Source: a virus
DNA: 42,190 nt
Virus record (IMG/VR): IMGVR_UViG_3300034012_002645
Location: 1-42,190 of that record
Direction: 5' to 3' (one strand)
Position numbers and translations under genes: made by a program. Under the pieces are notes generated by a model, which saw nothing but the letters and a program-made list of their open reading frames with translations, was not told where the DNA came from and ran no database searches. Shown in pieces: positions 33,447 to 39,203 of the stretch (its first letter is position 1; every line of letters starts with the position of its first letter).

Positions 33447-33509
33447 GTTGAGGGTTGAGGGTTGAGAGTTGAGGGATTGGAGATTGGAAATTTGAGATTG
33501 GAAATTTCA
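33447..33509. repeat. Nine heptamers in one phase
   Basis: GTTGAGG, GTTGAGG, GTTGAGA, GTTGAGG (33447-33474) followed without break by GATTGGA, GATTGGA, AATTTGA, GATTGGA, AATTTCA (33475-33509). Two heptamer families are joined in the same 7-bp phase. The terL stop codon (TGA, plus-strand TCA 33507-33509) is the end of the last unit. Confidence 0.85.
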
Positions 33510-35204
33510 GTAGCTGCCTAGGGGTTGGAAGCTAAGGTCTGTGTTGTCGTGGTAGCTGGCGCCGCTTAAGACGAGGTATCTCAGGACGTCGATGGCATCT
33601 TTTGTTCCGGAGGTTTTGGGCCCCGTCCCCGTGTATTGGCTGAGGGCGAAGATGAGGTTTTTGCAGTTGCTGGTGACATACAGGGTCGGTTGGTTGAGGG
33701 CGCCGATGGGCTGGCTGTCGTCGTAGCTGAGCCAGTTGATAATCATCGTCACGCCTTCGGCGATGCCGTCGCCGGGGGCGGCGGTGAAGTGGAGGCCGAT
33801 CTCGCTGCATTCTTCGATGAGCGTGGTCGCGCCTTCCCTGGCGACGGTGGCGGCGTTGCCATACCGGCTGTCCATGATGCGCTCGAAGATGACGAAGTCT
33901 TCGGCGTCGCGGGCGTGGCGGGTTTCGATGTTTTCGATCTCGAGTTTGTAGTGGCTTAACCCGAAGCCGAAGCTGCGCTGGGCGTCGCCGGCAATGCCGT
34001 CGGGGTTGTTGCCGCCGGGGACGGCCCAGGGGCCGGGGAGGCCGACGCCGGGGACTTCGCGGACCTGGCTGGGCCATTCGTCATAAACGAAGCAGCGGCC
34101 GGCGGCGTCGAATCGCGCCCAGATCATGAACCAGTTGCGGCCGGAGCACGGGTCGACGACTTGGTAGTTGACGCCTTTTTTCGGCACGCGGTCGGGGGGG
34201 ATGACGTGGATGTTGGTGTTGAAGTTGACGAACATGTTGGCGGCCTTTTTCGTGGGGACGCCGTAGGCTCGCATGAGAATGCGGTCTTTGGGGGACTTGA
34301 TGAGCTCGGTCTTCATCGCGTCGTAGTTGCCGAAGGGGTTGTCGGCGGTGTGGAAGTAGACGACGCGGGCGGTGGGCTTGGCGCATTGCTGGACGCGGGG
34401 GACGCGGATGGGGCGGCCTTTAATGTCGAGGACGAGCTCGGCTTCCGTATCCTCGAGGGTGATAGCACCGGCGAGGTATTCGGCAACGGTGTCGGTGTAG
34501 CCGAGGACGGGCGTGAAGCCGACGGCGAGTTCGCCGTTGCGGGTGATGAGGCGGAAGCGGAGGGCTTCGATCCACTCGGGACTGACGAGCTCGTCGGCCC
34601 AGCAGTAGGTTAATTCGGCGCCTTCTACGGCTTTGACGTCCATGGAGTAAAATTTGAACCAGCACTGGCTGCCGTTCGGGAGGACGAAGGAGTTTTCGGT
34701 GAATCCGCCTTTCTGCGAGTAGGTGATGTTCGTGACGACGCCTTTGCGGAGCTTGCCAGAGGCGGCGGGTTTCCATTCGGCGGGCAGGTATTCCCAGATG
34801 TAGGGTTGCTGGTTCTGGATGCTGGAGGCTTCGGTGGATTGCAGGCACCAGACTTTGGCGCCGGGGGTATTGACCAGGATCTGCACGGCGCGGCGGGCGA
34901 GGTAGCGGGATTTGCTGGCGCGGTTGCCGCCGAGGATGAGGAGCTCGGTGACGCCTTTGGGGAATTGCTCGCGGAGCTCCGCGAATTGGCGGTCGGCCGT
35001 GGACCAAACGGGCAGGACGGCGCCGTAGCGGTAAGGATCTTCGATCTCGAGGCGGATGCGCTCTTCGAAAAGTTTGTGGAATTCGACGAGCTGATCCGGG
35101 GTCATGCGGCGGACGCCGTCGTCGAAGCGGACGAGGACGTTGCCGGCGGGGTCGCGGCCGAGGATTTCGGGCGCCTTATGGATTTGGTGCTGGGTGAAAA
35201 TCAC
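33507..35204 (-). CDS. terL: Large terminase subunit (ATPase-nuclease)
   Basis: 565 residues from GTG 35204, chosen because earlier in-frame starts would run through the upstream gene and its repeat. Walker A is the variant GGNRASKS (about 92-99), Walker B LTYCWADE (about 198-205). The C-terminal nuclease fold starts near YQVVDPCSGRNW (Asp351), with VYDEWP (about 374-379) and KDAIDVLRYLV near the end as further acidic sites. It packages DNA into the prohead through the portal. Heptamers are directly upstream and no Shine-Dalgarno is seen. Confidence 0.9.
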   Translation of the reverse strand: MIFTQHQIHKAPEILGRDPAGNVLVRFDDGVRRMTPDQLVEFHKLFEERIRLEIEDPYRYGAVLPVWSTADRQFAELREQFPKGVTELLILGGNRASKSRYLARRAVQILVNTPGAKVWCLQSTEASSIQNQQPYIWEYLPAEWKPAASGKLRKGVVTNITYSQKGGFTENSFVLPNGSQCWFKFYSMDVKAVEGAELTYCWADELVSPEWIEALRFRLITRNGELAVGFTPVLGYTDTVAEYLAGAITLEDTEAELVLDIKGRPIRVPRVQQCAKPTARVVYFHTADNPFGNYDAMKTELIKSPKDRILMRAYGVPTKKAANMFVNFNTNIHVIPPDRVPKKGVNYQVVDPCSGRNWFMIWARFDAAGRCFVYDEWPSQVREVPGVGLPGPWAVPGGNNPDGIAGDAQRSFGFGLSHYKLEIENIETRHARDAEDFVIFERIMDSRYGNAATVAREGATTLIEECSEIGLHFTAAPGDGIAEGVTMIINWLSYDDSQPIGALNQPTLYVTSNCKNLIFALSQYTGTGPKTSGTKDAIDVLRYLVLSGASYHDNTDLSFQPLGSY

Positions 35205-35205
35205 A

Positions 35206-35226
35206 GATGGGAGATTTGAAATTTCA
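35206..35226. repeat. Heptamer tract upstream of terL (3 x 7 bp)
   Basis: GATGGGA, GATTTGA, AATTTCA, one base before the GTG of terL; the last unit contains the stop codon of the 61-residue gene. Confidence 0.65.
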
Positions 35227-35409
35227 GAGGGCTGAGGCGGCCGTGACGATTTGCTCTTCGATATCTTCCCAGTTTTCGGGCGCTTCGGGTTGATCCCACT
35301 CGATGCGGGTGGGGCCGCGTTCGTCGGCAGCAAACGTGATCGTGCCGGTGTATTCGCCATGCTGCCACGCGTAGCGCGACGGGCTTTCGGTTTGTTCGAT
35401 GGTTGTCAT
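35224..35409 (-). CDS. Small acidic protein (61 aa)
   Basis: 61 residues from ATG 35409, overlapping the methyltransferase stop by 4 nt; an in-frame ATG at 35433 would overlap more. Sequence MTTIEQTESPSRYAWQHGEY, TGTITFAADERGPTRIEWDQ, PEAPENWEDIEEQIVTAASA. Acidic, with a beta-hairpin-like middle and helical end. Acidic small proteins beside methyltransferases can be DNA mimics, but nothing specific is seen. Confidence 0.45.
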   Translation of the reverse strand: MTTIEQTESPSRYAWQHGEYTGTITFAADERGPTRIEWDQPEAPENWEDIEEQIVTAASAL

Positions 35410-36236
35410 TTCTCTACGTGTAAAATTTGCCATGCGAGAGCAGCCACTGCTGGAACTTGTCCGTTTCCAACGGACTTAATGCGGTCCAACCAACTGGCCA
35501 TCCCATGACCCATTCCGGCAACTCGGGGCAGTAGTCCGGTCCGGAAATCGTGACATTCACCAGGCCCTTCATATTCACAGTTTGGGCAGCCGTATTTGCC
35601 CAGTTGGTCGTCGAAGATATGCCCGCATTTCTCACAAGATCGAAAAGCAACATCGGCAACCGATCCAATCGTGTCTTGCCGTCCTTGCGTTCCGTCCCCA
35701 TGCCCAAGGTGTCCTTCCAATCCCGGGCGGTAGGCGTTGGAAGCGTAGAACCATAACCGCTTGCGTTTATGACCAAGTCCGACAGCGTCAGCTCCCAAAG
35801 TGATCCATCGGCATGCATACCCGAGGCGGGCAAGCTGGAAGACAATTTGCTCAAGTCCGCTTGTTCGGAGAGCAGGTGAGTTCTCACCGAAAACATAGGC
35901 AGGGCGAACCTCGCCAATAATTCGCAGCATCTCGCGCCATAAACCGGACCTGTCACCCCCAAGGCCCTCGCGTCCCCACATTGCTCGCGCAACGCTGATG
36001 TCTTGGCAAGGAAAGCCCCCCGATACCACATCAACAAATCCGGCCCAGGGTCGCCCATCGAAGGATCGGACGTCATCCCAAATTGGAAAAGGCTCAAGGA
36101 TTCGGTCGTTCTGTCGTGCCAGCAATACGCTTCGGGGATATCGCTCGATTTCAACGGCGCAAACCGTTCGCCATCCGTGGAGGACGCTTCCAAGTATTCC
36201 TCCACCAGCGCCTGTGAAAAGTGCCAGCTCATTCAC
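35406..36236 (-). CDS. DNA cytosine-C5 methyltransferase
   Basis: 276 residues, GTG start at 36236. Motif I-like LALFTGAGGGILGS (4-17), motif IV SGGFPCQDIS with catalytic Cys77, motif VI GENS (117-120), motif VIII-like GHKRKRLWFYAS (155-166), motif X GNGQVPAVAALAW (258-270). It puts a methyl group on C5 of cytosine, probably to protect phage DNA from restriction. The target-recognition region is short and holds a zinc ribbon (C201-x2-C204, C217-x2-C220). The whole gene is overlapped by a second open frame (35414-36232). ENS in place of ENV and KRKR in place of QxRxR are mild departures. Confidence 0.85.
   Translation of the reverse strand: MNELALFTGAGGGILGSVLHGWRTVCAVEIERYPRSVLLARQNDRILEPFPIWDDVRSFDGRPWAGFVDVVSGGFPCQDISVARAMWGREGLGGDRSGLWREMLRIIGEVRPAYVFGENSPALRTSGLEQIVFQLARLGYACRWITLGADAVGLGHKRKRLWFYASNAYRPGLEGHLGHGDGTQGRQDTIGSVADVAFRSCEKCGHIFDDQLGKYGCPNCEYEGPGECHDFRTGLLPRVAGMGHGMASWLDRIKSVGNGQVPAVAALAWQILHVEK
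35414..36232 (-). CDS. Overprinted 272-residue frame inside the methyltransferase gene
   Basis: Open from ATG 36232 (4 nt inside the methyltransferase GTG) to 35414, in another frame of the same strand. The protein starts MSWHFSQALVEEYLEASSTD and ends near LPEWVMGWPVGWTALSPLET; I recall annotated phage proteins with this start and a GWPxGWT end, but have not searched. Its GAFLAKTS is the shifted reading of the methyltransferase GGFPCQDIS. Support for translation: the ATG overlaps the stop of a 15-codon frame by 4 nt, and a GGAAA lies about 8 nt upstream, better spaced for this ATG than for the GTG. No known catalytic motif. It may be truly dual-coded or an open shadow. Confidence 0.5.
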   Translation of the reverse strand: MSWHFSQALVEEYLEASSTDGERFAPLKSSDIPEAYCWHDRTTESLSLFQFGMTSDPSMGDPGPDLLMWYRGAFLAKTSALREQCGDARALGVTGPVYGARCCELLARFALPMFSVRTHLLSEQADLSKLSSSLPASGMHADGSLWELTLSDLVINASGYGSTLPTPTARDWKDTLGMGTERKDGKTRLDRLPMLLFDLVRNAGISSTTNWANTAAQTVNMKGLVNVTISGPDYCPELPEWVMGWPVGWTALSPLETDKFQQWLLSHGKFYT

Positions 36237-36276
36237 TTTGTTTCCATTCTTTCGGGAGGTCGAGGTCGAGGATCAT
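36229..36276 (-). CDS. 15-residue mini-gene coupling the zinc protein to the overprinted frame
   Basis: ATG 36276 overlaps the stop of the upstream zinc-ribbon gene (ATGA), and its own TGA overlaps the ATG at 36232 (ATGA). Peptide MILDLDLPKEWKQSE. Both junctions follow the 4-nt rule used throughout this operon. It could be a leader peptide whose translation feeds ribosomes onto 36232, or the remnant of a longer gene. Very short, so uncertain. Confidence 0.4.
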   Translation of the reverse strand: MILDLDLPKEWKQSE

Positions 36277-37805: not shown

Positions 37806-39203
37806 TTAGTTCCCGTCGGGGTCGTTGAAGTTTTTGGGTTGGTAGGTTTGGCGTTCGGCTTTGTTGTTGCTGTAGAGCTTTTCGGTGCTGCTGCGGAATT
37901 GGGTGATCTCGGCGTCGAAGTGCATTTCGATGCGGCCGACGGGGCCGTTGCGTTGCTTGGCGAGGATCAGGACGGCTTTGCCTTTGTCTTCTTCTTTATG
38001 ACTTACTCGTTCGGGGCGGTGCAAAAGCGCTACGACGTCGGCGTCTTGTTCGATGCTGCCGCTTTCGCGGAGGTGGCTGAGCTTGGGCTCGGCTCTTTCT
38101 TCGGCGTCGCGGTTGAGTTGGCTCAGGGCGATGACGGGGACGCCTAATTCTTTGGCGGTGGCTTTGAGGCCGGAGCTGATTTCGTCGATCTCGAGGCGGC
38201 GGTCTTGGGCGGCGCGTTTGGTGCTGCCTTTCATCAACTGCAAGTAGTCGACGATGAGGAGTTTGACGCCGTGCTTGGCGACGGCGCGGCGGGCTCGGGC
38301 GCGGAAGGCGGCGATGCTCAAGGCGGGGGTCTCGTCGAGATACAGGGGGGCGTCGACGATCTCGCCGACCTTGCGGCCGAGCTTGGCCATCTCATCCTTT
38401 GACATAAAGCCGTCGCGGACGCGTTGGAGTTTGACGCCGGATTGGGTGCAGAGGACGCGTTCCATTAATTCTTCGCCGGTCATTTCTAGGCTGAAGAGGG
38501 CGGTGGGGACTTTGTCGGTGAGGCAGGCGTGTTCGGCGATGTTGGTGGCGAAGGCGGATTTGCCCATGCTGGGGCGGGCGGCGATGATGATGAGTTGGCC
38601 GGCCTTGAGCCCGCCGGTCATGCGGTCGAGGTCGCTGAAGCCGGTGGCGATGCCGATGGGTTTGCCGCGCTTTTTGTGGGCGAGTTCGATGCGGGTGGCG
38701 GCGGCGTCGACGGCGTCGGCACAATGGACGAGGCCGGATTGCTTGGTCTCGAGGCGGAGGTCGAGGAGCATTTTTTCGCTGGCGTCGAGGATGTCGTCGG
38801 TGGGGCGTTGGAAGTTGCGGCTCTCGAGGACGAGCTCGAGGCCGATGCGGTGGATCTCGCGGCGGCGCCAGTAGTCGCGGAGTTGGTCGGCCCAGTGGGT
38901 GAGATTCCCGGCGATGCGGGTGTATTCGCTGGTGATGTAGCCGGGGCCGCCTTCGATCTTGGCGAGCTCGCCGGATTGGCGCCAGGCCTCGGTGTAGGTG
39001 AGGAGGTCGAGGGGTTGGCGTTTGTGGGCGATGTCTTTGAGGAGGAGCCAGGCGGTCTTATTTACCGGGGCGAAGAACCAGTCGTCCTGGACGAGTTCGA
39101 GGGCGGCGTCGAGGGAGGGCTGGCCGCCGTTGAGGACACTGCTGATGAGGGAGGCTTCGGCTTCGTGGGACCAAAGCGGGATTTGGGTGTTGTCGGAGGT
39201 CAT
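37806..39203 (-). CDS. dnaB: Replicative DNA helicase, DnaB family
   Basis: 465 residues, the usual size. The N-terminal helical domain (SHEAEASLISSVLNG) is joined to the RecA-like domain. Walker A ARPSMGKSA (209-217, K215), Walker B LLIVDYLQLM (D319), SQLNR (361-365) and RESGSIEQDADVVALLHRP at the end of the core. It unwinds DNA at the fork as a hexamer and should work with host primase and polymerase. The replication-initiator-like gene at 40363-41259 is a probable loader partner. No Shine-Dalgarno; heptamers lie upstream. Confidence 0.93.
   Translation of the reverse strand: MTSDNTQIPLWSHEAEASLISSVLNGGQPSLDAALELVQDDWFFAPVNKTAWLLLKDIAHKRQPLDLLTYTEAWRQSGELAKIEGGPGYITSEYTRIAGNLTHWADQLRDYWRRREIHRIGLELVLESRNFQRPTDDILDASEKMLLDLRLETKQSGLVHCADAVDAAATRIELAHKKRGKPIGIATGFSDLDRMTGGLKAGQLIIIAARPSMGKSAFATNIAEHACLTDKVPTALFSLEMTGEELMERVLCTQSGVKLQRVRDGFMSKDEMAKLGRKVGEIVDAPLYLDETPALSIAAFRARARRAVAKHGVKLLIVDYLQLMKGSTKRAAQDRRLEIDEISSGLKATAKELGVPVIALSQLNRDAEERAEPKLSHLRESGSIEQDADVVALLHRPERVSHKEEDKGKAVLILAKQRNGPVGRIEMHFDAEITQFRSSTEKLYSNNKAERQTYQPKNFNDPDGN

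Follow-up and report, generated by a model that had tools for sequence, protein, structure and literature searches.

A phage C5-cytosine methyltransferase gene with a second, fully nested reading frame that probably encodes a partner subunit

Two reading frames on one stretch of phage DNA

The window, meaning the whole stretch of DNA analysed here, is a tailed-phage record of 42,190 bases. Two reading frames on its minus strand span the same ~820 bp. The first, M (35406..36236), begins with GTG and specifies 276 amino acids; its sequence, its PF00145 and phrog_363 matches and an AF2 model mark it as a C5-cytosine DNA methyltransferase, the putative alpha subunit of the enzyme proposed below. 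The second, O (35414..36232), begins with ATG, specifies 272 amino acids in the +1 frame relative to M and lies entirely inside it; sequence and homology suggest a beta, or specificity, subunit. The initial annotation had described two full-length frames sharing one strand and one stretch, and both are present at these coordinates. A large-terminase-like gene (33507-35360) and a DnaB-type helicase-like gene (37806-39203), both named by eye, lie near the locus, and an unsystematic look recognised no restriction partner adjoining the pair.

Along M, sequence and alignments place motif I (FTGAGGG, 36198..36218, minus strand, as are all features of the pair), which is also covered by the PF00145 match, and motif IV with the catalytic cysteine (GGFPCQ, 36003..36020). 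The GAFLAKTS segment of O is the +1 reading at this motif IV, as had been pointed out from the sequence at the outset. Further along, alignment identifies the motif VIII region (HKRKRLW, 35751..35771) and motif X (GNGQVP, 35451..35468), the latter in a canonical motif X context. Two features are proposed for O. Residues 165-235 (35528..35740), consisting of PTPTARDWKD and a variable stretch, are the candidate target-recognition region, on the basis of an entropy profile and the layout of single-chain enzymes; residues 236-251, PELPEWVMGWPVGWTA (35480..35527), are the candidate motif IX, from the O C-terminus HMM and hhalign.

The frames open at a double start, GGAAA-caaa-GTG(M)-A-ATG(O)-A (36229..36245), which is evident from the sequence and the family alignment. 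The GGAAA (36245-36241) stands 8 nt before the ATG of O and 4 nt before the GTG of M. A mini-ORF of 15 codons (36276..36229) lies upstream and overlaps the start of O through ATGA. Both the GGAAA spacing and this overlap had been read as start signals for O; both exist, but the mini-ORF is not conserved among relatives, and a role for it was dropped for that reason. The ATG of O lies exactly 4 nt downstream of the M start in 135 of 141 loci, a set that partly includes loci found with O, and the consensus of the family start is NTG-A-ATG-AGY-TGG. About one tenth of the relatives (L016, L020, L023, L024, L040, L090, L114, L136 and L160) have a non-start codon 4 nt upstream of the O ATG (TTA, CTT, CTC, TTC and others). 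As these are not usual starts, M must begin elsewhere in those relatives.

Selection on both frames

Does O exist only because of the methyltransferase frame that contains it? Homologues were gathered from viral contigs, with M alone and with O, and from bacterial and archaeal genomes with the O profile, and both frames match end to end in almost all of them. Stop codons were counted from the start to motif X in 40 homologues of <85% identity, chosen by M alone, and compared with 500 within-gene synonymous codon shuffles that preserve the M protein and its codon usage. The +1 frame contains 1 stop where 161 are expected, the lowest of the 500 shuffles having 136, and it is stop-free in 39 of the 40 homologues against an expectation of 0.7. 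Stops in the +2 frame match expectation (460 vs 467). This M-selected test is the unbiased one, since the sets used for start offsets and interruptions partly include loci found with O. In a set of 155 distinct loci that match over the full length of both frames, some of them found with O, interruptions affect M in 8 loci and O in 4.

Substitution patterns point the same way. The third codon positions of M are the second codon positions of O, and within the window's clade, at ~70-73% M identity, third-position differences are about as frequent as first-position differences (M codons). Single-chain enzymes of Streptococcus phages served as a divergence control because close relatives share no flanking genes. 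At an M identity of ~0.8, four-fold third positions differ at 0.219 in nested genes vs 0.457 in the single-chain Streptococcus genes; at ~0.9 the values are 0.072 vs 0.260. The amino acid identity of the +1 frame is correspondingly 0.71 vs 0.52 and 0.88 vs 0.72. Pairwise BLOSUM scores of the +1 frame are far above those of shuffles throughout the gene. However, conservation of the +2 frame is above shuffles as well, and the +1 scores were set aside as sole proof; more weight is therefore placed on the stops, the third positions and homology outside the overlap. The size of the conservation scores, but not the stop and third-position results, is partly a matter of shared ancestry or DNA-level constraint.

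The raised +2 similarity would be in keeping with O being a passive, untranslated shadow of the methyltransferase frame, produced by composition, codon bias and conserved M residues, as would the fact that some +1 residues are forced by conserved M residues. The single-chain Streptococcus genes (L311-L390) also lack +1 stops over 10-40% of their length, where ~59 would be expected in 11 representatives, and have many elsewhere; shared ancestry is possibly the cause. Nevertheless, a passive shadow is extremely unlikely, because +1 stops are depleted even conditional on the M protein and codon usage, third-position change in M is suppressed, the start of O is fixed in position, and homologues of O exist outside any overlap. 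O is not a chance ORF: both frames are open and under purifying selection across homologues, which shows dual coding under selection. The initial annotation had suspected a long dual-coding gene with a conserved overprint, and stop depletion, third-position constraint and the fixed start offset bear this out; the finding that it named as decisive against the idea, a second frame broken by stops at the neutral rate, did not materialise.

Methyltransferase motifs in M and O

M matches PF00145 (E 3.5e-23) over M residues 4-165 only and phrog_363 at 2e-47, and its profile matches M.HhaI at 3.5e-21. Motifs I, IV (PCQ), VI (ENV/ENS), VIII and X are present, with invariant columns in the alignment, and by these features M is the catalytic part of a C5-cytosine DNA methyltransferase. 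It has motifs I-VIII and X, and no recognisable motif IX or full target-recognition region, so that the catalytic polypeptide does not hold what a single-chain enzyme would hold. The AF2 model of M (mean pLDDT 69.6) aligns to M.HaeIII and M.HhaI over ~171 of 324-327 residues, which corresponds to the large domain only. A short, poorly conserved stretch is kept between motifs VIII and X. In the window's clade this part of M has a zinc-ribbon-like CEKC...CPNC (window 35580-35640), which overlaps the proposed target-recognition region of O.

O gives no match above chance in Pfam or NCBIfam, and a PDB profile search against solved structures returned only a chance match (E 0.38). It does match phrog_1008, 'DNA methyltransferase', at 1e-8, and its C-terminus matches phrog_26627 and phrog_35493, two families of unknown function. 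The C-terminal part is built of PTPTARD-type segments, then a variable stretch, then PELPEWVMGWPVGWT; in the window, PTPTARDWKD and the stretch after it are followed by the C-terminal end PELPEWVMGWPVGWTAL. Residues 181-235 vary in both sequence and length in the entropy profile. This is how a target-recognition region with motif IX behind it would be expected to look, although the putative motif IX of O is without the usual TxRE. AF2 predicts O alone poorly (mean pLDDT 49.8), with moderate values at the C-terminus only; the poor model fits a protein that would fold on its partner, and also fits disorder.

The distribution of motif IX is informative about the two frames. Thirty PF00145 loci were compared in 15 genomes, and as these genomes were reached via nested loci the counts are not a census: 14 loci, judged by eye or pattern, have a motif IX in M and lack O in +1. 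The M frame of the other 16 has no motif IX. In 15 of these, +1 matches the HMM of the O C-terminus and contains 0-2 stops over ~200-280 codons; in the last, L399, +1 reads RWLSGSERLKMMGFASDWM, which is more conventional. In a wider scored set, likewise no census since its first group comes mostly from one Streptococcus clade, 80 loci have a canonical motif IX without O, and 292 lack a canonical motif IX and have O in +1. At the level of sequence, motif IX in M and in O is thus shown to be mutually exclusive.

Where else are the parts of O found? Gordonia phage Fitzgerald gp4, Mycobacterium phage Seagreen gp68 and prophiFSQJ01-1 gp6 are natural fusions, in which LLPTPxAxD-like segments and an AEWMM/PEWMMGWP-like stretch share one polypeptide with the catalytic domain and motif X. 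Graduation gp47 is a shorter form, with AEFYEWLMGLPRGWV and then motif X, and stops close its +1 frame. In split forms (Alma gp83/gp82, Vagabond gp6/gp5, ArV1 067a/067b and phiBT1 9.1), the catalytic gene and a second frame that follows it overlap in part, and the second frame has the C-terminal half seen in O. The O profile matches these second genes (ArV1 067b 1.7e-15, Alma gp82 3.1e-15, Vagabond gp5 3.8e-13, ranging to 5.3e-5) and the fusions Seagreen gp68 (5.6e-7) and FSQJ gp6 (1.8e-5); its matches to Fitzgerald (0.003) and Graduation (0.01) are weak, and it does not match the catalytic (alpha) genes of the split pairs. Profile-profile comparison with hhalign gave 98.5% (E 1.9e-15) and 94.6% (E 6.6e-8), and the O C-terminus HMM matches single-chain methyltransferases directly before motif X. 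The phrog_1008 family that includes O scores 2.1e-74 with ArV1 067b, 2.8e-68 with Alma gp82 and 3.1e-67 with single-chain Fitzgerald. Since the parts of relatives outside any overlap are still matched by the O profile (9.8e-7 to 1e-3), the methyltransferase frame does not account for the similarity.

These sequence comparisons show O to be homologous to single-chain and split C5 methyltransferases over their C-terminal half, which holds the target-recognition region and motif IX, and the two frames are therefore most likely two subunits of one enzyme. The initial annotation had envisaged a methyltransferase plus an unknown partner; dual coding with a methyltransferase stands, and the partner now has a family. 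By contrast, nothing comparable to the first ~100 residues of O is seen in split or fused relatives or outside nested genes. This would suit a protein that is truly overprinted yet no subunit, acting independently, for example as a regulator or an anti-restriction factor. Such a role is unlikely, given that the C-terminal half is homologous to that of single-chain enzymes and to the second gene of split ones, and that O is present where M is without motif IX.

Nesting takes more than one form. Whereas L052 and L041 share with the actinophage pairs a motif X in the O frame, the window and most relatives carry it in M. Because X follows IX in the O frame of L052, L041 and the actinophage pairs, a programmed +1 frameshift joining M motifs I-VIII to the target-recognition region and motif IX of O would there rebuild the full enzyme as a single chain, leaving the O start unused. 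For the window and most relatives the fusion would be without motif X; moreover, O has a fixed ATG at +4, and its N-terminus over motifs I-IV, for which a frameshift would have no need, is conserved. A frameshifted single chain is thus very unlikely, and two separate subunits remain the preferred reading. In the L225 family and in phages including ShroomBoi and S72, the +1 frame does not become open until some way into the gene, and the extension of O to the gene start, with its MSWHFSQALVEEY-like N-terminus, therefore seems to be a derived trait of the window's group. These forms suggest that a single chain may have passed through a tandem split to full nesting.

A proposed two-subunit enzyme and its relation to known systems

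With considerable confidence, we interpret the locus as a two-subunit C5-cytosine DNA methyltransferase whose second subunit is coded by a fully nested +1 frame. M (alpha) would supply the SAM-binding and catalytic domain (motifs I-VIII) together with motif X, while O (beta) would supply the target-recognition region and motif IX that are absent from M. Two starts 4 nt apart behind one Shine-Dalgarno-like GGAAA would allow both subunits to be made off one mRNA, and M and O would assemble into one active enzyme that may modify phage DNA, probably against host restriction. We infer translation of both frames, assembly of the subunits, methylation activity, a joint requirement for M and O, and the biological role. 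The model predicts that M expressed alone fails.

It is somewhat more likely than not that fully nested alpha/beta C5 methyltransferases form a major, largely unrecognised class in tailed phages, that single-chain, tandem-split, nested X-in-beta and nested X-in-alpha forms all survive, and that the N-terminal ~100 residues of O are a newly created domain. If all four forms survive, the change from one gene to two superimposed genes can be traced and tested. The locus would be a same-strand overlap of ~270 codons that well over a hundred divergent phages and prophages retain, and both frames are intact in hundreds of related ones. It is rare for both products of overlapping genes to be assignable to parts of one enzyme, as they would be here. 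As a DNA sequence coding for two proteins that probably work together, the pair is unusual in its length and conservation, and it can be tested. A nested partner would also explain why many phage C5 methyltransferases look truncated after motif VIII. Gene callers choose one frame (O in SOVA965, M in others), so part of the enzyme is routinely missed. In SOVA965 (L223, 1703-2203), the gene annotated 'DNA-cytosine methyltransferase' is the O frame and not the catalytic frame; in BUCT711 (L138, 1662-2177), the annotated gene begins inside the pair. In the open-licence literature searched, overlapping methyltransferase genes of this arrangement in phages are unreported, and as that literature omits most subscription papers, the novelty is provisional.

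A reading frame hidden in a phage methyltransferase gene has a parallel in ShiLan, where an HNH is inserted out of frame in a methylase (PMC11855218). The ShiLan frame is a mobile insertion; O, by contrast, runs across the gene's core and also occurs in relatives that have no insertion. Five relatives (L061, L063, L111, L112 and L114) have HNH-endonuclease-like ORFs inside the gene pair, at ~2.6-3.3 kb in each locus, which resemble the ShiLan insertion in spirit (PMC11855218). They apparently also duplicate the C-terminus of O, this time in a third frame; the ORFs and the duplication were seen by eye in translations.

As in the window, the small-subunit gene of M.EcoHK31I is reportedly nested in another frame of the large-subunit gene. 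In the summary of Lee, Kam and Shaw (1995) given in PMC3404938, M.EcoHK31I is a two-polypeptide C5 methyltransferase with motifs I-VIII and X in the large subunit and a small subunit that carries only motif IX. M resembles that large subunit in having motifs I-VIII and X, and motif IX likewise falls, by sequence, on a second polypeptide, here O. There are also differences. The predicted target-recognition region of EcoHK31I is placed by that summary in the large subunit (PMC3404938), whereas in the window the variable region from PTPTARD to motif IX seems to lie in O, while M keeps a short, poorly conserved stretch between motifs VIII and X; and O, unlike the EcoHK31I subunit, begins 4 nt downstream of the M start and extends over nearly the whole of M. 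The likeness is to a published description, and O/M is not a proven member of the EcoHK31I family. Nested pairs would be natural split methyltransferases, the kind used for targeted DNA methylation, a use that M.EcoHK31I has had according to PMC3439449.

Further comparisons come from other C5 methyltransferases. Fitzgerald gp4, Seagreen gp68, FSQJ gp6 and Graduation gp47 share the catalytic domain family with M and have an EWMMGWPxGW-like stretch followed by motif X, with PTPxAxD segments in all but the M frame of Graduation; unlike the window, they hold all parts in a single frame. In M.AquI-type splits and in the Alma, Vagabond and ArV1 pairs, a catalytic alpha protein (motifs I-VIII) is accompanied by a second protein with the target-recognition region and motif IX, as proposed for M and O. 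The phage pairs and M.AquI-type splits have motif X in beta and overlap partially, whereas alpha holds motif X in the window and the overlap there is complete. O is nonetheless homologous, as judged by profile comparison, to the beta proteins of the Alma, Vagabond and ArV1 pairs, and its HMM match places it in phrog_1008 as a beta-like member of a DNA methyltransferase family.
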